In this document: piece by piece, positions 2,196 to 33,654 of the stretch
Layout: every line of letters starts with the position of its first letter
Numbering within the stretch: position 1 is the first letter of the stretch
DNA from: Sistotremastrum niveocremeum HHB9708
Taxonomy: Eukaryota > Basidiomycota > Agaricomycetes > Sistotremastrales > Sistotremastraceae
Assembly (NCBI GenBank): GCA_001630475.1
Contig: KV419402.1
Span: 427,910-491,909, forward strand
Direction: 5' to 3'
Length of the DNA: 64,000 nucleotides
Program-made: the position numbers and the translations under genes
The notes under the pieces: generated by a model
Database searches by the model: none
Told to the model about the DNA's origin: nothing
The model's input: only the letters and a program-made list of their open reading frames with translations

Positions 2196-2742
2196 TGAAG
2201 GATATTCAGATTCGGAGAAAGTGTCTATCATTAGTTGTAGTATATTCGGTATAAATTCTAGCAAGATGGGTTCATTCAAAACTTTCGGGGGTTTGAACAC
2301 TAGAGTTGACAGACATATAGAATCTGAATCGCCTGATAGTCGACTCTGTATGATGCTGACTGGCTATGTATGGAAGACGTTCGTGGCAAGCGTTCGGCTT
2401 ACGCCGATTTTGCTTCCTTGTCTTCATCGGACTCAATCGGCGCTCTGAGCCTCGCTTGCTTCAGGAGCTTCAGGTACTGCAACGCACATTTGATTCTGGA
2501 GGGAAGACCTCGGAACAAAATGCTGACAGATTTAGCCTGTAAGGGCCACGACCATAGAATAAGTGGATTGTGGAAGAGCGTGACTGTGTTCGTAAGAAAT
2601 AGTACAATGCAGAACTCTTCAAAGAGCCCCAGTTGAGGCAAATCAGGGGAATGCAAAACTGATTCAGCGACGCCGGTCTGAACAGGATACCGTATCAACG
2701 CGACGTTGAAGACACGTTAACTCAGATTGATATACCTCACTT
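2196..2742. other. Spacer between convergent amidohydrolase and SSP1
   Basis: This holds both 3' ends. A 99-codon minus-strand open frame (2399-2698) ends in a charged tail, SDEDKEAKSA. It lies downstream of the SSP1 stop, has no recognised domain, and I did not accept it as a gene. Confidence 0.4.
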
Positions 2743-3066
2743 TCAACAGGGACTGTATGCAGAGAGCCTGCAACCCTCTGCTGCTTGCGCGGAGTTGCAT
2801 GCGCCGTAAGTTCGTGCTGAATAGTGGCATTTAGATCACGTAGTAGGTGAGTAAATGATCACTCACTTCCATTGGGACATAGGCATGTTTCAATCACAAC
2901 CTGATTGAGTCGTCACGACGATATTCTGAATGAAGATGGATAAGCTTACGTCGCAGTAATGTGCCTTCGTAGTCGTGGTGGGGGGAATTGTGACTTGCGG
3001 AAGCGCATACGCCACGAGGAGTAGCGCGGTAACGAAAGGCAGGGTTCTCAAAATGAAACAAGTCAT
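2743..3066 (-). CDS. Small secreted six-cysteine protein, family member SSP1
   Basis: Three exons, 3066-2950, 2900-2867 (34 nt) and 2816-2743 (74 nt), have good GT-AG borders and encode 74 residues. The N-terminus (MTCFILRTLPFVTALLLVAYA) is a clear signal peptide. A Pro/Thr spacer (IPPTTTT) follows. The six-cysteine core reads in pieces YCD, ETCLCPNG, GACNSAQAAEGC, then AYSPC and stop. Its spacing C-x6-C-x-C-x9-C-x8-C-x7-C matches SSP2 and SSP4 exactly. Intron 1 falls right after the CD codons and intron 2 one base into the codon after CPNG, as in the other members. I do not recognise this family. An extracellular role as a disulfide-bonded effector, antimicrobial or signalling peptide is possible but not shown. 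Confidence 0.83.
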
Positions 3067-3103
3067 GGCGACAATGCATGCTTGGGGGCTTGGTGAGTAT
3101 CGG

Positions 3104-3112
3104 TCTTATATC
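3104..3112 (-). promoter_or_regulatory. TATA-like box of SSP1
   Basis: On the minus strand this reads GATATAAGA, 38 bases upstream of the SSP1 ATG. Similar elements precede SSP2, SSP3, SSP4 and the 9.1-9.2 kb peptide at 49-67 bases. Confidence 0.5.
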
Positions 3113-4137
3113 TGCCTTCCCTTGCGGAATCCACAATATTGGTGCAGGAGGCATTGACATAAAAGATGGTACGACCGAATGAAAACATCGTTCAGGGGCT
3201 TTCTCTCTTATTATCGGAAGAATCGTAGGAGGGAGTAGCGCCTTGAAGACCACGAGAACATGGCGTCCGGCCTCCGTCAAAATAAGTCGAGGCCTGAGAT
3301 CATGCAGGCTCCAGAGGAAAATGAATCGGGTATTCGGGCTTAGCTTTCGTTAAATTTTAGTCGTCCAAATGAGACATCGAAGGGGCAGAAAGTCCGATAT
3401 TGAAGCAGGCAGATGTGGCACACGGGCCCCAATTTTCCTCTTCAGTTTGGTGAACTTTGGCACTGACTCGCATTTTGGCTGCGCAGTGGACCAGACGACG
3501 ATGTGCTTTTGAGCCCCAAGAACAGTGAGCCTTTCATGCATAGCGGTTTGGAGTGTTGAGAGCTGAGCCTTCAGCGTTAATCGATTGCAATCGTTGCCAG
3601 AAACGCGGATCCGCCGAAACGGTGGATGAGAGTGAATGCCTCGTGAAAACTTCCGGAGTTGGCCGGCTTCCCTTCGTCGCGCTTTCAATCTTTCGTTGGC
3701 GTTGCCAAAAACTACTCTACTGTCGACAGCAGAATGGTCGTCAATGATGGCAGGATGTGATGATATCACCCCCAAGAAGCCCGAAAATTTCGACATTCCC
3801 TTGCTCCAACCATGCAAGTCCCGTACGAAAGCGTCGACTGAAGTTGGATACACGCATCGTCACTACTGAAGGGCGTTCCAGAAGCAAACATATCCTCGAA
3901 TTGCAGAATAAATAAACATGCTTCCGTTGTAACCGGTTACTTTCTTGCCTCGTGGATGTCATTCACTGAACTCTTCTGGGACCACAATACGACACTCTTC
4001 CCCGACGAATGAGGTGGTCCTCTATGTTGGGTGTCCAATCACAGTATTCGCGGCCCTTCCCATATCTCTCCTCCTCGTGAAGGTCTATCAGATTCCACAA
4101 AACCTGGTATACTGACGACTGTAACCTACTTGTCGTT
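3113..4137. other. Spacer between SSP1 and SSP2
   Basis: About 1 kb with no gene I can defend. The longest minus-strand frame (3350-3853, ~150 residues from its first ATG) has no recognisable motif, signal peptide or splice partners. It could be a decayed gene. Confidence 0.4.
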
Positions 4138-4465
4138 TCAACAGGGGCTGTAACTCCCACGGTAACATCCTTCTGCAACCTGCGCGCTCGTACAGGGCCA
4201 AGCACTGTGGACTGTGGGATTGACAATAATCAGTGTGCACTCCATGGGTGAAACGTGACAAAACGGTAAATACTTACATCCGCCTGGGCATTCGCACACA
4301 ATCTCAATCAACTTTTTCGCAGCATTAATGATTGACTCTCATTGACAGGTGGGTACTCACATCGCAGTGGAAATGGATAGAGCTTGTAGGAATAGGAGAT
4401 ACAACAGCACCCCACGCCGAGAGGTACAGACTTGAAGCAACGGCAAGAGCAAAAAGGGACCGCAT
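4138..4465 (-). CDS. Small secreted six-cysteine protein, family member SSP2
   Basis: Exons 4465-4361, 4311-4278 (34 nt) and 4211-4138 (74 nt) encode 70 residues. The signal peptide is MRSLFALAVASSLYLSAWGA, followed by a Pro/Ser/Thr spacer (SPIPTSS). The core in pieces is HCD, EIVCECPGG, PCTSAQVAEGC and SYSPC, followed directly by the stop. Cysteine spacing is C-x6-C-x-C-x9-C-x8-C-x7-C. The exon 3 frame was chosen because it restores the Q-x-[AW]-E-G-C block and C-terminal cysteine shared by all four members. Using the next AG, 7 bases downstream, opens a longer frame (to 3963) lacking this conservation. Intron 1 ends in AAG. Same strand and gene structure as SSP1, about 1.1 kb away, so a tandem duplicate. 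Function unknown. Confidence 0.83.
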
Positions 4466-4531
4466 TTCGTCTGATTTTCGATTGCCACGAAGAAGCAGAA
4501 TTGGGAGAGTGCTGAGAATGCATAAGCCCTT

Positions 4532-4540
4532 CTTATAAAA
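4532..4540 (-). promoter_or_regulatory. TATA-like box of SSP2
   Basis: On the minus strand this reads TTTTATAAG, 67 bases upstream of the SSP2 ATG. Confidence 0.5.
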
Positions 4541-6179
4541 CCCTCAAAGCGTCCATTTGAGTGACCTCCGGAGTCCGTCCGAGTTGAACATATCGATCCA
4601 ATACCGACAACGTACAAGTTCGCATGAAAGAATGACGGAAAATCGTTGGGCTAAAGCGTGCCTGAACCGCGTCACGTAGGGGGTGAGAGAATTGTGCCTG
4701 TAACGAAGGGGCACCGAAACTCAATTGTTGATCGAGTCATGGGGCTTTGAGTCAGGGCCCAGTAGTATCATGGCTTGACAGAGCTCGGTGCGTTCCTGGA
4801 TGTCAGCGTTTGCCAATTTGGTCAAAGTCCAACACATTCGATCCTTCATACATTTCGAGGCGAGATACTGACACATCTGACTGAAATCGGTATATCGATA
4901 TCTTTGAAATGATCTTCCCAGCTCAGGCTAGTTGGCTTTGATGAGCTTCATGCAAGTTGAAATGTGATAGTACTGGATTCATGAACTCGGATTCCATTGA
5001 CTGATACAATTGATAGGTTCAGTGCGGATCTGTCGGAACAGAAGGAATATCCCTCGGGCGCCGCGAGCGTGCAAAACGTTTATTGGTCGAGAATATAAGA
5101 GACTCTCCATCATGGCGTCGCACGTTCTCTGAGACAGTGAGACTCGATATCTTCTGGACCCTCGTATCAAATCGTATCAAGTGGTGTAGCCGATACATTG
5201 CTTTCGATACACTGTCACAAATTGACCCTTGGGACGTTTCGCTTTGGTGTTGAGGCATGGGAGCACAATAAACTTGAAAGCCAAAATCAAGCAAGATCTC
5301 CCTGAATTGGCATGTTGCGGATCAACTACGGAAGCTCTGAATCCAACGGAAACGCCCGGCGAAGATATGACGTGACTCATCACTGCGAAGTAGAAACTTG
5401 AGACATCGATGGTGAGCGGACTTTATCCGTTCATGGAGCGTGGCATGCAGCTTGCTAGGGCGAATGTCAGTAGCAGGTTGAGCCCGAGCCAACAGGCAGG
5501 CATCAAAGAATCAAAGTTTACTTCTCAACGCCAGGAATTCAATCGAATGAGCGTTTGGTTCCCACTAATAATTGTAGACAGTACACATCCCAACTCTTCA
5601 GAATATTTGGAGAAGCCCAGTATAGCAGAAAGCTATGCGATGGCTGATATATGATATAGCGCAATCGGATCACTAACCAGTCAGAATTAGCACTCGCGTG
5701 GCCCGTAGATCTCCGCTTTCGTTGAGAAGTAGCACTGGCTTGAGAATGGTCTAGCCTTGGAACGCAATCCAATTGACTCTTCCACGAGGTCTGCGCGACT
5801 CAGTCATACGATCATCCCGAAATGCAGGAGGTTCAACCAATCATCACGAAGTCGAGACAGCACAGAGCGGAACACAGGGTTGATCGAAGGTCCTTAGATC
5901 GACTCGTATGCTGGCATCAGTGCCATGGTGCTAGAGGGCCAATAAGCGTTCGCTGCAGAGCATCAGCTTCCGTGCCGGCACCGACTCCGGCTTCGTTCGC
6001 TTCGGATTCCAGCGCCCGGCTTCTCTGCCCTGATCGCCTGCGCTGTATGCAACTTTGCATTCAACCACACTCAACTTGCCACAGCCTTCGACGATCATGA
6101 GGTCAAGATATTCCTGCTCTCAGTTCCAGAAATAGCAGCTGGTTGAAACTCAACGTCACACTGGACTCGGAGTGCATTG
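4541..6179. other. Spacer between SSP2 and GMC oxidoreductase 1
   Basis: About 1.6 kb of AT/GC-mixed DNA with only short overlapping frames. I looked on both strands for a further six-cysteine gene (CxCP and EGC blocks) and found none. It is shared upstream DNA of two divergently transcribed genes and is long enough to hold regulatory sites for both. Confidence 0.45.
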
Positions 6180-6187
6180 TATAAAAG
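6180..6187 (+). promoter_or_regulatory. TATA box of GMC oxidoreductase 1
   Basis: TATAAAAG lies 80 bases upstream of the ATG at 6268, a near-consensus match and position. Confidence 0.6.
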
Positions 6188-6267
6188 TCCTCGCTGCGAA
6201 CCATCCTCGACCTCAGACAAGTCTCGGCTTCTAACTCTCAAAAGTCACCTTGACAATCCACTCACCA

Positions 6268-8533
6268 ATGTTCAAATCAGTCATTCTTTCAGTCGCTATC
6301 GCACTTCAGGCGAATCTTCAAGTGGCCCACGGGGCGCTACTCACCGATCCTACGAAAATTGGCAATAACTACGATTTCGTAGTCGTCGGAGCTGGTATTG
6401 GAGGAAGTGTCGTTGCCAATCGACTTTCTGAGAATCCCGCCTGGAAAGTCTTGCTCATCGAGGCTGGTATCAAGTGAGGTTATCGCTGGCGCGTCCATTC
6501 TTTGCGCTCACGCCTGTTTAGCAATGCCGGTCTCGAAGATATCAGCATTCCTTTCTTCGCCCCCAGAGATTCTCCCAACGAGATCTGGACTTGGAATGTG
6601 AGTATACAAGCCATATTTATCAGCAGACATACTAACAATAACCCAGTACACCACCGTTCCTCAAACAGGTCTCCTCGGGCGTACTCTTACCTACCAGCGT
6701 GGCAAGATCTTGGGTGGCACTAGTTCCATCAGTATGTATTTTCCCGTGGCGCGGTGTTCAATCTCTGATATCCGTGCAGACTACATGATGTTTACCCGTG
6801 GTTCATCTGACTTCTGGGACAACATCGCCAACTGGACCGGTGACTCTTCCTGGGGATGGAAGAACATCTACAACTACTTCATTAAAGTCAGTCCTTACTC
6901 CGCGTCCCCTTTCATTATATTAATCGCCGAATTTTGCAGTTGGAGACTTTCACCCCTCCCGCCGATGGACACGATACCACTGGACAATACGACCCCTCCG
7001 TCCACGGTACATCCGGCCCCTTGGCCGTCAGTTTGCCCGGAGCCGCCAACGAGCTCTCTCCCTTCATCTTCCAAACGCAACAGAACGAGGCATCCCACTG
7101 GCCCTTCATCCTCGACGCTAACAGCGGTAACCAGCTCGGTCTCGGTATGTTCACTATCTTCCATAATTGATACATAACTGACTCTCCGTCTCAGGTTGGC
7201 TCCAGGCTACCATCAACGGCTCTACTCGTGCATCCGCCGCCACCGCTTACCTTGCTCCCCAATACATTTCCCGTCCCAACTTGGATGTCTTGATCGAACA
7301 ACAAGTCACCAAGGTCCTCTTCAACACCAATGTTAAGGGCGCTCCTCAAGCCACCGGTGTCACATTCGCCTCCGGACCCAAAGGTAAATCCACAAGCAAA
7401 ACTCAGCTATCTAGTCAATACTTACGATATGTAACAGCCAAGGTCTACACCGTCAAGGCCAAGAAAGAAGTCATCCTCTCCGGTGGATCAATCGGCAGCA
7501 CGCACCTCCTCCTCCTCTCCGGTATCGGCGACAAGAACGCCCTCAAGAAAGTCGGCGTTTCCTCCATCTTCAATAACGCAGAAGTCGGCTCCAATCTCAT
7601 CGACCATCCCTGCATCACCAACCACTGGGTCGCGAACACCACCAACTCTCTCGATCTCCTTCGCGAGAACTCGACGGCTTTGGCTGATGCTATCGCCAAC
7701 TACGATGCGACTGGAAAAGGAAGACTCGTCGATACTGTTTCGCCTGCTATGGGTCTCTTCAGGTTCCCGGATAATTCGGATTTCATTCAGAGTAATCCGG
7801 GTGTTAAGACTGCTTCTGGACCCAAGGCTGCCGAGTACGAATTCTTGTGGATCGTAAGCTTCTTCCTCTTCTTCTTTGAGCGGTGCTAATGTATATTGGA
7901 TTGGATAGGATGGTTGGGGATCTTTCCTCCCCGTCCCTGGTCCCTCAGGCTTCTACCTGACCCTCTCCCAAGTCATCCTCTCTCCTTCATCTCGTGAGTT
8001 TTCTCTCTACCGTCTTTCGACTGCCTTCTTACATTCAAACTAAGGTGGAACCATCACCCTCAACTCCGCCAGCCCATGGGTCTTCCCCACCATCGACACA
8101 GCCTTCCTCACCACCGAATACGACCTTGATATCTCGCGCGCAGCATTCAAAGACGCACGTACCTTCATGAGCGATAAAGCCTGGAAAGGCTACAACCTCG
8201 GCGAAGCATTTGACCAGAGTGCCTTCCAGACGGATGCGCAGATCGATTCCTACCTCCGCAACAACACTACTCCCGCTTATCATATGACTTCTACCAATCG
8301 CATTCAGAGCCATAAGGGTGGAGATGGTGTCGTTGATAATACTCTCAAAGTTGTCGGTGTCAGTGGTCTCCGTGTCGTTGACAACTCTGTTTTCGTGCGT
8401 CTTCTTTCATTCAGATATATCGAAGTTTAACTGATGACTTTTATAGCCTTTCATCATCGAGGGTCACCCCGAGGCCACCATCTACGCTCTTGCCGAGCGC
8501 GCATCTGATTACATCAAGGCCACTTGGGCTTAG
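6268..8533 (+). CDS. Secreted GMC oxidoreductase 1 (aryl-alcohol oxidase-like)
   Basis: About ten short-intron exons encode a ~600-residue flavoenzyme. A signal peptide ([18 protein letters not shown]) precedes the ADP-binding site [20 protein letters not shown] with the distal LIEAG. Later come [13 protein letters not shown] (GMC signature 1), [17 protein letters not shown] (signature 2), [10 protein letters not shown], a His in YHMTST and a second His in [15 protein letters not shown]. The His/His pair fits aryl-alcohol oxidases and related AA3 enzymes. These oxidise alcohols extracellularly with FAD and O2 and supply H2O2 for lignocellulose attack. The dinucleotide site has GAGIGG where most family members have GGGTAG. 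Substrate cannot be read from sequence. It lies between the two SSP groups, on the opposite strand, with a strong TATA box. Confidence 0.93.
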
Positions 8534-9058
8534 GACGGTCGTGGGCGGTTGGGTTGTGGTTGGTAGCAGAATTGCGCTATTCCTTAGATGTACCTAATTA
8601 TAGATATTTCATTCGTATCATTCCCCAGCGATATCAAGGTGGCTATTCACGGTGTCCTATCTCGATATATACCACTCGGGAGCTCACCCGGGCCGGCGAG
8701 TCAGGCGCCATGCAATCGACTCGAGTATCAACTGATCAACCAGAACTACTTGGGGACTGCGGCACAATACGATTGAAGGGACATAGATGCTATAGTACAT
8801 TGGAATTGAGTTAACACTTGGTCAAGCTAACATGCGATTTCCTGGGGGCCATGTTACAAGAGATGGTCACAAGACGATGAGATTGACCAGTTCATTATCG
8901 ACACTTCTGTCTGTTCACAGCCGCGAACCCGCCGTTCAGGGTAAATTGGAGGATGGTTGTTATTATTAGACTTCGTTGCCATCAATCCTTTTGTGACCGA
9001 CAGTACTGTGGTAGAAGTATCGGTGAGGAAGCAGCTCTTGATCAGATACAAATGGTGC
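8534..9058. other. Spacer between GMC 1 and the 9.1-9.2 kb peptide
   Basis: About 0.5 kb between two convergent genes, with only short overlapping frames. It presumably holds the two 3' untranslated regions. Confidence 0.45.
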
Positions 9059-9226
9059 TCACGGCGCTGGTACTGGCAGGAAAGAGCCCCAGCCATCCCT
9101 CCACTCTGGGTCTTCTGGAACCTCTCGTTCAAGGATGATCGGGACAGGGGCAGCTGTAGGATTGCAGCCGTTCGATGCGAACATGATCAACATGTAGACT
9201 ACGAGCAGTTTCGCGAGTAAAATCAT
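9059..9226 (-). CDS. Short secreted peptide (55 aa) with a GMC-oxidoreductase-like tail
   Basis: A single intronless frame starts at an ATG with a TATA-like box 55 bases upstream. A hydrophobic leader (MILLAKLLVVYMLIMFASNG) runs into a mature part beginning near CNPTAAPVPIILE. The final residues, [15 protein letters not shown], align with the segment of the neighbouring GMC oxidoreductases around [10 protein letters not shown] (GMC 1) and LWRDGWATFLPVPYP (GMC 3). In the GMC genes that segment is interrupted by an intron exactly at WR|DG; here it is continuous. It lacks the six-cysteine core of SSP1-4 but shares their strand, size, leader and promoter style. It could be a real peptide precursor or a fragment that captured GMC coding sequence. 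Confidence 0.5.
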   Translation of the reverse strand: MILLAKLLVVYMLIMFASNGCNPTAAPVPIILEREVPEDPEWRDGWGSFLPVPAP

Positions 9227-9280
9227 TTGACGGGTAGATGGGGCGGAAATGGCTTTCACAGAGGGGAATCCACGGCGCTC

Positions 9281-9289
9281 TTTATATGA
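9281..9289 (-). promoter_or_regulatory. TATA-like box of the 55-aa peptide
   Basis: On the minus strand this reads TCATATAAA, 55 bases upstream of the ATG at 9226. Confidence 0.45.
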
Positions 9290-9953
9290 TAACGAAAGAT
9301 AAGAGGGTTGGCATAGAAGGAAACATCTTCCTCTGCCAAAGCTCCTGAGGCGTCTGAGGGGACAACTCCGCATCAAGATCTCGTCTCAACTGCTGGATTC
9401 GCAACCCATGTCAGGGGATCAAGCCATGCGATCCTTCAGAAGTATAGTAATTAGGAGTAACGAGAGGATTTGAGGCCCGTCCAAGAGTTTTCGAGTACCT
9501 AAACATCGTTGCAGGGTGGCTGTGGATTAGGTGACGTATGCAACCATTTTCTATCTTATCAGCAAGACAGGAGGTACAACATTCTACTGAAAGCTAATCA
9601 TCGTCTCTGAGCTTCCAAGAAGCCCGCACCGAGGACTCAGACCATATGTGGATGCGCCGGGGTGTCTAGGTCGTGTCTTAACTGCGAGATTGATGACGTG
9701 CGGCCAGGGACAAAGAGTGTATCAGGTCACGTGTACTTCAACGAAGGGTGCAGCAGACAATGCAACTGTGAAGGAGATTTGAAGCGGCTGGCGAGGACGA
9801 AGAAAACTCGAATTTCTAGCTGACTTGGGCAGCCAAGTTGGGCTGGACAACTTGGAGCTGGAATACGTTTTGTTGACAACTATTTGGTCGGCGAGCTTTA
9901 GCAGGTAGGTAAAGAAGGGCTCGCGACAAGAAATTAAGTTGATATCGTTCCGA
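9290..9953. other. Spacer between the 55-aa peptide and SSP3
   Basis: About 0.66 kb. It holds the SSP3 3' end and the upstream region of the 9226 peptide. A long minus-strand frame running 9722-10360 simply reads through SSP3 introns in the wrong phase and is not the gene. Confidence 0.45.
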
Positions 9954-10360
9954 TCAGGTAGAACTACTCGCAGGACTAGTAGTAGTCGCGGTAGGAGAAT
10001 AAGATCCGAATGGCCCGGTATAAATGGGGCAGGTATTGTATGTACTATTGCGACATCCTTCCCAAAGCTGTAGTGTCGTGCATTCTCCTTCGGCTGGGAC
10101 TTTGAAATAAAAAAAGAGGAGACGATTTTAACATATATCGTTATGCCTCCGAGTCGATGACGAGTTCGTATCTCATACTTACGTTTCCCAGGACAATCGC
10201 AAACAGGAATTATATCTCGCTGCAACATGCTTACTAAGCAAGTGTATCGCTCAACAGCAGAGGAATGTATACTGACCTCGCATTGTGGAGGAAGTATGGG
10301 AGTTGGGGACGCCAATGCGGCCGCAGCGTAGAAAATGCACAAAGCAGAGAACGCAATCAT
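9954..10360 (-). CDS. Small secreted six-cysteine protein with Ser/Thr tail, family member SSP3
   Basis: Exons 10360-10277, 10219-10183 (37 nt) and 10099-9954 (146 nt) encode 88 residues. The signal peptide is MIAFSALCIFYAAAALA, then a Pro-rich spacer (SPTPILPP). The core in pieces is QCE, IPVCDCPGK, ECTTLQLWEGC and TYNTC. It differs from SSP1, 2 and 4 in two ways. Exon 2 is one codon longer, so C1-x7-C2 instead of x6. Translation also continues 21 residues past the sixth cysteine into a Tyr/Gly then Ser/Thr-rich tail (TATTTSPASSST) that could be O-glycosylated. Cysteine spacing after C2 is unchanged, and both introns sit at the family positions. It lies 277 bp downstream of SSP4, head to tail. 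Function unknown. Confidence 0.82.
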
Positions 10361-10421
10361 TTCAGTGTCAAAGCTGGGATCGAGGGGTGAGTCCGTTGAT
10401 CATGAATCTTGACTTCACTGC

Positions 10422-10430
10422 TCTTATAGA
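10422..10430 (-). promoter_or_regulatory. TATA-like box of SSP3
   Basis: On the minus strand this reads TCTATAAGA, 62 bases upstream of the SSP3 ATG, within the 277-bp gap between SSP4 and SSP3. Confidence 0.5.
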
Positions 10431-10637
10431 CGCAACACAAGTCATAGATCTCAATTGTGCTCAGGCACAGCGGCGCTACATCGCTCCTGTAGAAAACAAG
10501 CTGGACAAAAATATCACCCAGAAGCACCGTCACAGGAACACGGAGAAAACTACGGTACCTAACTACACATCAGATATGCGATCTTCCCCATCTGAACGAT
10601 TGAGATTATCTCTGACATTCGCTTTCGGAAGCCATTT

Positions 10638-10979
10638 CTAGCAAGGGCTCCAATTCGTCTGATAGCACCCTTCGGCCAACTGAGCCGCAGAACAATACAA
10701 ATTTGTCCTGGCTATATTGTCATCGGTAAACCCCACATAGACTTGACTCATGAAGTAGGTGTAAACTTACTTCCATCAGGGCATTCACAAACGAGTTCCA
10801 CCAGCTAAATGAAAATGATGAGATTGCAAAAGAAGGAGACGATTGGTCAAATTTACCTCACAGTGCGGACGACCACTTGGAGAAGGCACCCACGTCGGGA
10901 ACACGGCTGCCGACACAAAAAGGGCCTGATAGCGCAGAAAGACTGATGCTACAAGGAAACAAAACGCCGCTGAACGCAT
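10638..10979 (-). CDS. Small secreted six-cysteine protein, family member SSP4
   Basis: Exons 10979-10857, 10804-10771 (34 nt) and 10711-10638 (74 nt) encode 76 residues. A long leader (MRSAAFCFLVASVFLRYQAL and on to FVSA) is followed by a Pro/Ser/Trp spacer (FPTWVPSPSGRP). The core in pieces is HCE, ELVCECPDG, YCSAAQLAEGC and NWSPC, then stop. The acceptor at 10711 was chosen because it gives the C-x9-C spacing and the 74-nt exon seen in SSP1 and SSP2. The leader contains an extra Cys that should be removed with the signal peptide. SSP4 and SSP3 form a tandem pair, as SSP2 and SSP1 do. Function unknown. Confidence 0.83.
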
Positions 10980-11027
10980 ATTGGGAATGCTGGGGTCGCG
11001 AAACTGAAGGATCAAAAGCAAGTTCGT

Positions 11028-11036
11028 CTTTATATC
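11028..11036 (-). promoter_or_regulatory. TATA-like box of SSP4
   Basis: On the minus strand this reads GATATAAAG, 49 bases upstream of the SSP4 ATG. Confidence 0.5.
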
Positions 11037-11505
11037 TTCGACAGAGTAACTGCCTTCCAGAGATTTGGGCGGAAGAGACCGAGCAGGAAGTCCTCTGACT
11101 TTGAGTCTAAGGAGTAGACGAAAGGAGAAGTTGAATTGAAGCGGTGACAAGCGTTCCTGACAGCTTGCTGATTCGATTGCATTCCAAAAGACGTACTCAA
11201 TAAACGTCACCCCCACAGATCGAATAGATCAGCAGGCCCGCGGGTAGTTATCGATACGGCAAGGCGAAATGTGTTGCCAGTCTTGACCGATTGCCCAATG
11301 AGGTTATTATTATATCCAGAGTTAATTGCATCCAGATCGAAAATTTAGACATCGGTAGAAGGCTCCAGGATTTCTCATCGACATCCATACTAGTGAGCTT
11401 CCCGATGTAGCAGGATCAGACGACCATGTCCCTGAATTTCGGATGCAAATCGCACATCTCAGACCGTCTCATCCGGGAGCTGAGTGAAGTGTAGGGACCG
11501 TCCGC

Positions 11506-13340: not shown

Positions 13341-15790
13341 TTACTCCGACCTCTCGACCATCCCAATACCCTCCTTCTCAACCTCCTTCCTCAAAACCTC
13401 ACAGACCTCAACACCACCATCTTCATAATCATAAGGTGCCCGGACACCCCATTTACCCTCCCCAACGAGGGAAGGATGGGCGTCTAAGATCAGTTGAGAT
13501 GCGATGCCACAGGGGACACCGACGGTCAATGACATCGCGGAGGGTGCGGGAGGTTGAGGGGATCCGTAAAGTTCCAGGGTGGACGTCAATTTCTCCTGCA
13601 GAAATGAGTTAGCCTCTCAATCAAGAAGCAAAAGGGAGGAGACGTACAGAAGATCCATCTTTCCATTGAACACCGAATTCATGTCTCAAAATAATCAAGT
13701 CCCGCTCGCCAGGATGATAAAGCATCTCATCCATCTTCTCAAGTCTCTTGCAAAGCGTATCCAGGAGATTCGCATCCTTATGCACATCCGCAACGTTCTC
13801 CGAGAAAATCCCAAGCCACTTCAAAGCAGCGATCACACTCTTATCCGCTTCAGGAACTTTAGAACGGATAGTAGCGATGAGCTGAGGTTCAGAAGCTGTT
13901 GAAGCTCCAAGGACCTTCTGAGTGATTTGAGCCCAGGTGAGAGATCCTGCTCCCGATTTGAGCCAATCCTTGGTTGTCGCATCTAACCATCCGATCTCGA
14001 CGAGAGCCTTGATGATACCGACGAAAGGTGCATATCTCAATGTCCCTCTGAGGATGACCTCGGCTTCGGGAATCCGGTACTTCTCTTTGAAAGGCGATGA
14101 ATCACGATTCGCGTAGCCGACGAGATTGTATGAGGGAGCGAGAGGGATAGAGTAGCGTGTAGCGGAGTCCATCAGTGCTGAGCCACCGCCGGGGATTGAG
14201 AGGCTCTTTCCATCTTTGATGTAGGTCGCAGGGTTGAGAAGAGCGAGGAGAACACCACGAGCCGACCACGAGAACTTGTATCCAAGAGGGTTGGTAGCGT
14301 TCTCAGGAGCAGTAAGACCACCGCAATAAGACACAAACTCAGTGATCTTTCCTCCCTTCGCCTTAACCTCCGAAATCGTCTTGACGGCGTAAAGATGATC
14401 AATACCAGGATCCAAGCCGATCTCGTTGAAGACGAGGATACCGGCTTTGATAGCTTGCTCGTGGAGCTCGAGCATGGAGGGGGAGACGTAGGAGGTTGTG
14501 ACTACGTTGGTTTTGGTGGCGATGGCGGCTTTGATGACGGTGGCATGTTGGGTGTAGGGAATGAGGGAAATGACGAGATCGTGGTCTTTCAGAGCAGTTT
14601 CTAACTCTGCGGGACCGGTGGGTGAGCTGACGTCGAGAGCGATGGGAGTGATGCGGTTGTGCGCCGCGGGGTTGACTGCGATGAGCGTGTCTTTGAGTGT
14701 TGACGCTGATGCGGTCGAACGAGCGGCGATGGTGAGATGATTGTTGGGAGATCGGAGGAGGTACGATGCGCATGGTCCGGCGACGTATCCTGATCCGAGA
14801 ATCAAAATTTTCTTCGTCGAAGAAGACTTTGCGCTGGCCTTCTCCTCTCGCGGTGTAAGATCAGGGAGAATATCCCTGCCCTCCTCAATCAACACCCGTC
14901 CGAATTCCGGAAGGACGAATGCGGCCTTGTGTACGTTATTGTTGTAATAACGACATCCCGGCACCGTCCTCAGAGGAGCTTTGACATCGCGGGGAGGACC
15001 TCCTGCCTTCTTAGCGATCACGAAACCAATCTGACCGGAAGGGTAGGTAGGGATAGTCGTGAACGCATATTCAGCAATCTCGAAGATCTTCTTCACCGAA
15101 TCCTGGATCGATTTGATGAAAGGAAGATGCAACCAAAGGCATTCGGACTGCGTAGAGATGTGACCTCCAGGATTCAAAGCGTTGTGAAGGAGTTGGAAGT
15201 ATGGGGGTTGGAAGAGTGCTGAGGCGGGTCCGACGGGATCAGACGAATCAGTGATGATTACGTCGTATTTCTCGAGTTTCGGATCTTGCAGGTAGGCGAA
15301 TCCATCGGCGATATGGACCGAACAACGATTATCGTTGAGCAGAGCAGCCATGTGTGGGAGATAAGTCTTTGAAACACGAGGAACAGCTTCGTCGATATCG
15401 ACCAGATCGACATGATCGACTGATTCGTGCTTGAGGACTTCACGAACGACGCCTCCATCGCCTCCGCCGATTACGAGCACGCGTTTTGGGTTGGGGTGGG
15501 CGTTGAGAGGGATGTGGGCGATCATTTCTTGATAAGAGAATTCGTCTCGCTCGGTGCATTGGATCACACCGTCCAATACGAGAACGTTGCCATATGTTTC
15601 GGATTGGAAAACGAGGACGTCCTGGAACTTGGACTTTTCGGTGTGCAAGACCTTTGCGACCTTGATGGACATGGCTTGTCCAGGCCATTGAGAAGACTCT
15701 TCACGGAACCAGCCATCTGAAGATCCAAGTCAGAACGATCTCATATTGATAAAACGATGAACACGCACCTTTGATTGTGGGATGGGACAT
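13341..15790 (-). CDS. SPE3-LYS9: Spermidine synthase - saccharopine reductase fusion (SPE3-LYS9)
   Basis: A bifunctional enzyme of about 780 residues in three exons. A tiny first exon (MSHPTIK) starts at 15790, one long exon follows, and a last exon ends at 13341. The N-terminal ~290 residues are spermidine synthase: [27 protein letters not shown] and [11 protein letters not shown] bind decarboxylated SAM and putrescine, releasing spermidine and methylthioadenosine. After a short Lys/Ser linker the remainder is L-glutamate-forming saccharopine dehydrogenase. It has an NADP Rossmann motif ([17 protein letters not shown]) and [16 protein letters not shown], and performs the penultimate step of lysine biosynthesis by the alpha-aminoadipate route. 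The fusion is known in basidiomycetes. Both halves look intact. It is divergent from the PRM10-like gene, 153 bp away. Confidence 0.96.
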
Positions 15791-25702: not shown

Positions 25703-28085
<2,383 letters not shown>

Positions 28086-31406: not shown

Positions 31407-33654
31407 TCAAAAGTCTTTCCAGGTAAATTTAATCAAATCAGAAGCCCTTTCTGCAAGAGCATAAATTGTTGCCTCGGGATGACCCTCAATGATGAAGGGC
31501 TGGAATGAAATAGCTTAGTTCTCCTATCCACAGCCAGGACGAAGGCGCTTACGAAGACGGAGTTATCCACAACACGAAGCCCAGTCACGCCCTTAACTTG
31601 TAGCGAACTATCAACCACGCCATCTCCTCCAGTTGTGCTTTCCATTCTGACCGTGCTGGTCATATGGTATATGGGTGTCGTGTTCTCGCGGACATATGTA
31701 TCGATCTCGTCATCGGTGACAGCATCCGCTTGATCGGGGGCAAGACCCATATTGAATCCTTTCCAAGGCGGAGTATTCATGAAATCACGCGAAGCTTTGA
31801 CTGCTGCTCGCGACATGAGAACGTCGTATTCGCTGGTTAAGAAGCCTGGATCGATGATTGGCGCCGTGAATGGATCGCTCGATGCGAGCACGAGGGATCC
31901 ACCTGTTTAAGCATTAGTGTATTGTGAAGCCAATGCCACGACGACTCACGTGAAGCTGGCGAGAGTACAACTTGACTGACCGAGGTGTAGGATCCATTCG
32001 GATAGGGAACTGGCAGGAAAGTAGCCCACCCGTCCTAGCAACATTGAGATGAAATCTTGGCGATGCCTCAATAAGCACTCACCCGCCATAGAAACTCAAA
32101 CTGCCCCGCATTTGGCCCGCTGGCGGTCTTCACTTTGGGGAATTCTTTGAAAATTGCCGAATTCGGTGGAAGACGGAAAATGCCGATCAACGGGGAGACG
32201 GTATCGACCATCTCGCCTTCACCAGTAGCTTCATATTGCGCCTCCGCGGCGTTGAAATCGGTAGTGTTTTGCGACAGTAGATCCAGGGTGTTAGTCGAAT
32301 TGGCGATCCAATGATTGACTAGGCACGGGTGGTCGATCATGTTTTGACCCACTTCAGGATTGTTGAAGACTGAGGTGATATTTTGGGCGGCGAGGGCTTC
32401 CTGCTCGCCGATACCAGATAGCAAGAGAAGTTGTGCGCTCCCTATGGATCCCGCCGATAAAATAATCTCTCTGGAAGCCGATACCGTAAAGATTGGCGCT
32501 GCGAAGGGATCAACGTGAAGTCGAATCGAAGGGTCGCTGCGACTTACAGGACGGAGAGGACGACAGCTGGACTGAAGTGGCATGCGGAAGCCCTCGACCA
32601 TTCTTCTGGAATATTACTTTTGTGACTTGCTGTTGAATCAAGACGTGTAAGTTGGGTCTAGCTAGGTATTGCGGAGCAAGATACGCTGCGGCTGCACTGG
32701 CCCTGAGGGTGTCGTTGATAGTTGCTTGGACCCAACCTGTTGTGATGAGACATCAAATACTGAGAGGTTTAAGGAGAGCGAAGACGTACTGATGCCAAGA
32801 GGAAACCCGGTATTTCCATCAACGATGAATGGGAACTCGGACGAATTCGTCCGCGTTGTCTGAACGATCCGCTTGTTGATCTCTGTCGAAGCACCAGGAA
32901 GACTGATTGCAAGAGGTCCGGAAAGACCATGCGCCAAGGGTTGCCATTGACCTTTCGTATCATGGTGATCTGCAGGAGCCGTGACCGACTCCAACTAAGA
33001 GCGCATTCAGCATCATGTAGCTCAGATCTCGTAAAATCCGACCTTGATGAAGTAGGACACGATCGACGCCCATGACCAACCAAGATCGCCCGTGTAGCTC
33101 GCAATGTTGTCCCAGAAGTCGGTCGAACCCCGAGTGTAGATCATAAAATCTGGACATCGAGCGTTGAGCTATTGCTGAGCTTCATAGCGATGTATACTCA
33201 CTGATAGAACTTGTACCGCCCAATATTTTGCCTCTTTGATAAGTCAGCGTTCTGTTCAACAGTCCGGGTTGTGGAACTGTAGTATACTGAGATTTGTCAG
33301 TAAAGATGTACACGGGTCGGACGTGAAGACTAACGTTCCATGTCCATTCCTTATTAGGAGAGTCGGTTGGTGCTAAGAAAGGTGTACTGATTGCTTCCAA
33401 TCCGGCGTTGCTGAAAGATAAGAATGTAAGAAAGGAACAATCAAGTAAAATCGTACATACTCCATCCCAGCCTCAATGAGCAGCACTTTCCAACTTGGAT
33501 TTTCTGACAGTCGATTGGCTACAACACTTCCGCCAATCCCCGCACCAACAACCACAAAATCATAGTCGTCGGCTATCAACGTAGGATCGGTAAACAGTTT
33601 GCTGCATACTGATGAAATCAGCAGCGGGAGAATGATGAAGAGAATTTTGAGCAT
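31407..33654 (-). CDS. Secreted GMC oxidoreductase 3 (aryl-alcohol oxidase-like)
   Basis: Runs from MLKILFIILPLLISSVCS (signal peptide) to a C-terminus ending FTWKDF. It shares with GMC 1 the unusual [20 protein letters not shown] site, [13 protein letters not shown] and the YHMTST catalytic His block, then [18 protein letters not shown] 1 and 3 are thus closer to each other than to GMC 2. Signature 2 reads [17 protein letters not shown]. The exon junction LWR|DGWATFLPVP is a clear GT-AG intron at about 32.08-32.04 kb; the 55-aa peptide at 9.1 kb matches this junction without the intron. Extracellular FAD alcohol oxidase or dehydrogenase by family. It is convergent with the PPxY membrane protein, whose stop is 279 bp away. 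Confidence 0.92.

Follow-up and report, generated by a model that had tools for sequence, protein, structure and literature searches.

Small secreted cysteine-rich proteins (SSCPs) are a well-known kind of protein that is common in fungi and is often encoded by orphan genes. In one source, SSCPs are defined by a classical signal peptide, the absence of a transmembrane domain, a mature length of at most 300 amino acids, at least four cysteines, and a cysteine content of at least 5% (PMC4161775). According to a review, most fungal small secreted proteins are orphan-gene products (PMC7105643); an unnamed family of the present kind is therefore to be expected and is no surprise. The same review states that small secreted proteins of Pleurotus respond to aryl alcohols and that Ssp1 has been reported as a regulator of ligninolytic enzyme production in this genus (PMC7105643). 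The four clustered genes described here (A–D) lie in a 64-kb stretch of the Sistotremastrum niveocremeum HHB9708 genome, referred to as the window. Sistotremastrum, a genus of the Agaricomycetes (Sistotremastrales), lives on wood. Like the Ssp1 family of Pleurotus ostreatus, genes A–D appear to encode multicopy small secreted basidiomycete proteins, whereas the Ssp proteins are about 18 kDa (PMC7105643) and the products of genes A–D comprise 70–88 amino acids. With the SSCP class the four products share a putative leader, a length far below 300 residues even with this leader included, six core cysteines, and a cysteine content above 5% (6.8–8.6% of the whole precursor); this class is descriptive and is no family, and genes A–D are without a named-family match in Pfam, NCBIfam, and PDB sequences. 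Overall, the family is real, conserved, probably secreted, and hidden by a micro-exon.

Gene anatomy and the omitted middle exon

Exons, introns, and frames were rebuilt from the window, and the cluster consists of four minus-strand genes with three exons each (Table 1), as claimed in an earlier note on this DNA, of which the gene number, the strand, the product lengths, and the 34–37 nt middle exon were all recovered. The predicted introns are 49–83 nt in length and all GT..AG. In all four genes, intron 1 (phase 0) comes directly behind the acidic residue (D or E) next to core cysteine 1, and intron 2 (phase 1) lies within the third codon past the CxCP proline; given the lengths of the middle exon, its skipping produces a frame shift. 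The stop codon immediately follows the sixth core cysteine in genes A, B, and D, and gene C continues beyond it. A candidate TATA-like box is located 44–72 nt upstream of the ATG in 4/4 genes.

Table 1. Positions in the window of the four rebuilt genes, their exons, and the oxidoreductase gene among them.
Feature	Position	Strand	Length	Remarks
Gene A	3066-2743	-	74 aa	TATA-like box 44 nt upstream of ATG
Gene A exon 1	2950..3066	-		Encodes leader and Pro/Thr spacer, then core cysteine 1 and D
Gene A exon 2	2867..2900	-	34 nt	Carries CxCP; left out by deposited model P0001
Gene A exon 3	2743..2816	-		Last three cysteines and stop; acceptor 2816 common with P0001
Gene B	4465-4138	-	70 aa	TATA-like box 72 nt upstream of ATG
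Gene B exon 1	4361..4465	-		
Gene B exon 2	4278..4311	-	34 nt	
Gene B exon 3	4138..4211	-		
GMC oxidoreductase gene	6268..8533	+		Between genes B and C; start and stop by eye, ATG and TAG checked
Gene C	10360-9954	-	88 aa	TATA-like box 68 nt upstream of ATG
Gene C exon 1	10277..10360	-		
Gene C exon 2	10183..10219	-	37 nt	
Gene C exon 3	9954..10099	-		Includes 24-residue Ser/Thr-rich tail past last cysteine
Gene D	10979-10638	-	76 aa	TATA-like box 55 nt upstream of ATG
Gene D exon 1	10857..10979	-		
Gene D exon 2	10771..10804	-	34 nt	
Gene D exon 3	10638..10711	-		

In each protein, a hydrophobic leader and a spacer with proline precede a six-cysteine core, C-[DE]-x(5,6)-C-x-C-P-x8-C-x3-Q-x-[AW]-E-G-C-x4-[YW]-x2-C. 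The pattern in the earlier note was correct from the second cysteine onward, including the spacing from the second to the sixth cysteine (x1, x9, x8, x7), which is the same in all four proteins, and was one residue short between the first two cysteines, where x(4,5) had been given. The peak Kyte-Doolittle value over 11 residues is 1.95–2.70 in the first 32 residues vs. 1.00–1.38 from residue 29; by hydrophobicity, none of the four proteins has a later stretch as strong as the leader, and they are probably secreted. Pairwise loop identities among the four sequences are highest between cysteines 4 and 5 (27/48), followed by cysteines 5–6 (12/42) and 1–2 (10/36), and lowest between cysteines 3 and 4 (8/48).

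Gene A is already deposited as a hypothetical protein of 125 amino acids (SISNIDRAFT_494546, P0001 in Table 1) from the same strain. Its exon 1 is identical to that of rebuilt gene A, its first 64 residues fit a direct join of exon 1 to exon 3, and exon 3 is consequently read in another frame; the tail resumes further downstream, near 2578, and the six-cysteine core is absent. The donor and acceptor are those of rebuilt gene A, and only the 34-nt exon between them is missing. The skipping of this exon supports the claim that such genes are difficult to annotate, and it bears out the earlier proposal that a micro-exon hides them from single-ORF calling. The deposited model is the sole splice evidence contrary to the present one. 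It is nevertheless very improbable that its join, with the frame shift and loss of the core, is the correct structure, as omission of exon 2 leaves four dissimilar tails across genes A–D, judged by eye, whereas its inclusion yields one conserved core with fewer nonsynonymous than synonymous changes per site (pN < pS). Skipping of exon 2 could represent a minor alternative splice form of gene A.

In the GMC oxidoreductase gene, Pfam PF00732 matches the piece 7182–7889, no Pfam match was obtained for the piece 6602–7177 at E 0.001, and the nearest solved sequences to 7194–7856 are aryl-alcohol oxidases (PDB, E 3.1e-27). Pieces of further GMC oxidoreductase genes are located at 26439–27371 and 32068–32613, both on the minus strand. 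Within the cluster, a further ORF of 55 amino acids (9226–9059, minus strand) begins with a hydrophobic leader and is preceded, at a distance of 60 nt, by a TATA-like sequence; it is without the six-cysteine core. At 13621–15729 on the minus strand, spermidine synthase and saccharopine dehydrogenase occur in one open frame, a fusion known in basidiomycetes. Neither an Rfam match nor a tRNA was detected when the window was scanned.

Relatedness, age, and copy number

In six-frame translation of the window, the motif of the third exon, C-x3-Q-x2-EGC-x7-C, is present four times, each time at one of the four genes, and it is absent from 20 mononucleotide shuffles, 20 dinucleotide shuffles, and the reversed window. 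Since this motif was taken from the genes themselves, a leave-one-out test is fairer: profiles built from any three third exons recover the fourth, with an E value of 1e-8 for gene A, 1.6e-8 for gene B, 2.7e-3 for gene C, and 3.4e-6 for gene D and the best non-member at 0.57, 0.97, 1.8, and 0.46, respectively. A chance origin of the pattern is ruled out by the shuffles and these profiles. The spacing C-x8-C-x7-C alone (9 in the window vs. a shuffle mean of 2.4, maximum 5) and CxCP alone (11 vs. 5.15, maximum 8) also occur in shuffles and are therefore weak evidence when taken singly.

The core identity between pairs is 13 to 20 of 37 residues, and gene C is the most distant member. In the 37-codon core, with one gene C codon dropped for alignment, pN is lower than pS in 6/6 pairs, and dS is saturated in four of them and amounts to 1.68 and 2.51 in the remaining two. 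Genes A–D are thus old copies held under constraint; the saturated synonymous change suggests their age and predicts orthologues in Sistotremastrum suecicum. Decayed copies are ruled out by open frames, GT..AG introns, and pN < pS in all four, and recent duplication is ruled out by blastn matches of just 17–31 nt among the four gene regions. A single repeat of at least 24 nt was found in 2400–11200; it links a 25-nt stretch in exon 1 of gene A to the GMC gene (76% identity), and not two of genes A–D to each other. Leave-one-out recovery, shared introns, and pN < pS uphold the claim that the four six-cysteine proteins are related and conserved, and the hydrophobic leader makes their secretion probable.

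Searches of the genome (34.7 Mb) with two short patterns and with protein and exon-3 queries, which are of limited sensitivity, revealed only genes A–D. No further copies occur elsewhere in the window, and a regular-expression scan of the 30 kb to the left for the third-exon motif and CxCP[GNDS] revealed none there, two matches having only the C-x8-C-x7-C spacing. Q-x-A-E-G-C has eight genome matches, i.e., genes A, B, and D and five without cysteine context, and Q-x-W-E-G-C has six, i.e., gene C and five without such context. The exon-3 peptides of genes A, B, and D matched only one another or themselves; gene C was missed by all three, and equally distant copies would therefore escape them. 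The full-length gene A query matched only itself. The gene B query also matched C7:286152 (E 0.012), where the frame has one CxCP and then no cysteine before the stop, and the gene C query matched C13:761123 (E 0.25), where the core is absent; both were rejected. The four-gene profile scored loci L036–L039 at E 0.0004 to 0.009, values that are not independent because these loci were chosen for having Q-x-W-E-G-C, and the C-x3-Q and C-x7-C spacing occurs in none of them. Near base 1501 of L036, L037, and L038, on three contigs, the translated stretches are nearly identical, which suggests a mobile element. A looser second-exon pattern gave 154 and 124 matches vs. 60 and 70 in the reversed control, eight loci of which were viewed.

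Comparison with known families and proposed role

The four proteins have no credible match in Pfam and no match in NCBIfam at E up to 10, with none above the curated cut-off of either collection and a single sub-threshold Pfam match, unrelated, for gene C (E 0.13); two profiles gave nothing better than E 0.71 against PDB sequences. The family is therefore not matched to any named family in these three collections, and to this extent the earlier statement stands, whereas its word "undescribed", taken broadly, goes further than the evidence. A literature search, mostly of journals outside subscription, found no such family, and a plasmid collection gave no match, none being expected. Protein-collection searches, which require three shared 5-residue words and cover proteins 0.55 to 1.75 times the query length, yielded P0001 as the sole match; it was obtained with an alignment of the four proteins (124 candidates), and two further searches gave no match. 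Within this length range, no annotated protein corresponding to gene B, C, or D was recovered, and relatives mis-spliced like gene A would escape such a search.

The preferred explanation is that genes A–D are old clustered copies of a small secreted cysteine-rich protein family. On export, the leader would be cleaved off, the proline-containing stretch would serve as a flexible spacer, and three putative disulfides would hold the core of 37–38 residues. The scaffold common to all four would be the Q-x-[AW]-E-G-C segment, and the variable face would be formed by the C3–C4 loop of eight residues; the conserved C4–C5 and variable C3–C4 loops of the four sequences are consistent with a fixed scaffold bearing one variable face, a picture similar to that of secreted inhibitors or effectors. 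The product may be an extracellular effector-like or inhibitory peptide directed at competitors, extracellular enzymes, or the fungus's own colony. Taken as a whole, this explanation is more probable than not; confidence is high in the identity of the family and low in the effector-like or inhibitory role, although this role is the most likely one.

Other assignments have been weighed against it. It is improbable that the proteins belong, in strongly diverged form, to a disulfide family already known, e.g., one with an EGF-like or protease-inhibitor domain: C-x-C-x2-G-F-x5-C in gene B does fit the EGF signature, but this short EGF_2 signature fits only one of the four proteins and the full EGF six-cysteine order none. 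The Kazal, pacifastin, CS-alpha-beta defensin, ICK, and hydrophobin cysteine patterns likewise fit 0/4 each, and the database searches above also argue against such membership. With secreted defensin-type antimicrobial peptides, the products of genes A–D would share small size, cysteine richness, clustered genes, and varied loops. Typical antimicrobial peptides are cationic, whereas the part of each product that starts at residue 26 has a net charge of 0, -3, -3, and -3 in genes A–D; this neutral to acidic charge, together with the missing CS-alpha-beta pattern, makes that assignment still less probable than an EGF-like or inhibitor origin.

The position of the aryl-alcohol-oxidase-like GMC gene inside the cluster raises the question of colony signals of the Ssp1 kind, tied to aryl-alcohol metabolism. 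Aryl alcohols induce Ssp1 in Pleurotus (PMC7105643), but the Ssp proteins are far larger than the products of genes A–D. With the Pleurotus response, the GMC gene makes an aryl-alcohol link possible but weak, since proximity alone says little and further GMC pieces lie elsewhere in the window; signaling of this kind is thus doubtful, about as much as an EGF-like or inhibitor origin.

Implications for fungal secretomes

In a wider reading, this is an ancient unnamed fungal family that has a three-disulfide scaffold of its own and occurs in many mushroom-forming fungi, where it has been overlooked because gene finders skip the 34–37 nt exon that splits the core; such a reading is conceivable but less likely than not. 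Genes A–D, with their fixed intron positions, provide a test case. A family confined to the genus would merely add to the many orphan secreted families of fungi. Should other fungi prove to have the split core, however, a whole class of secreted peptides is being missed by standard annotation, and secretomes are larger than counted.
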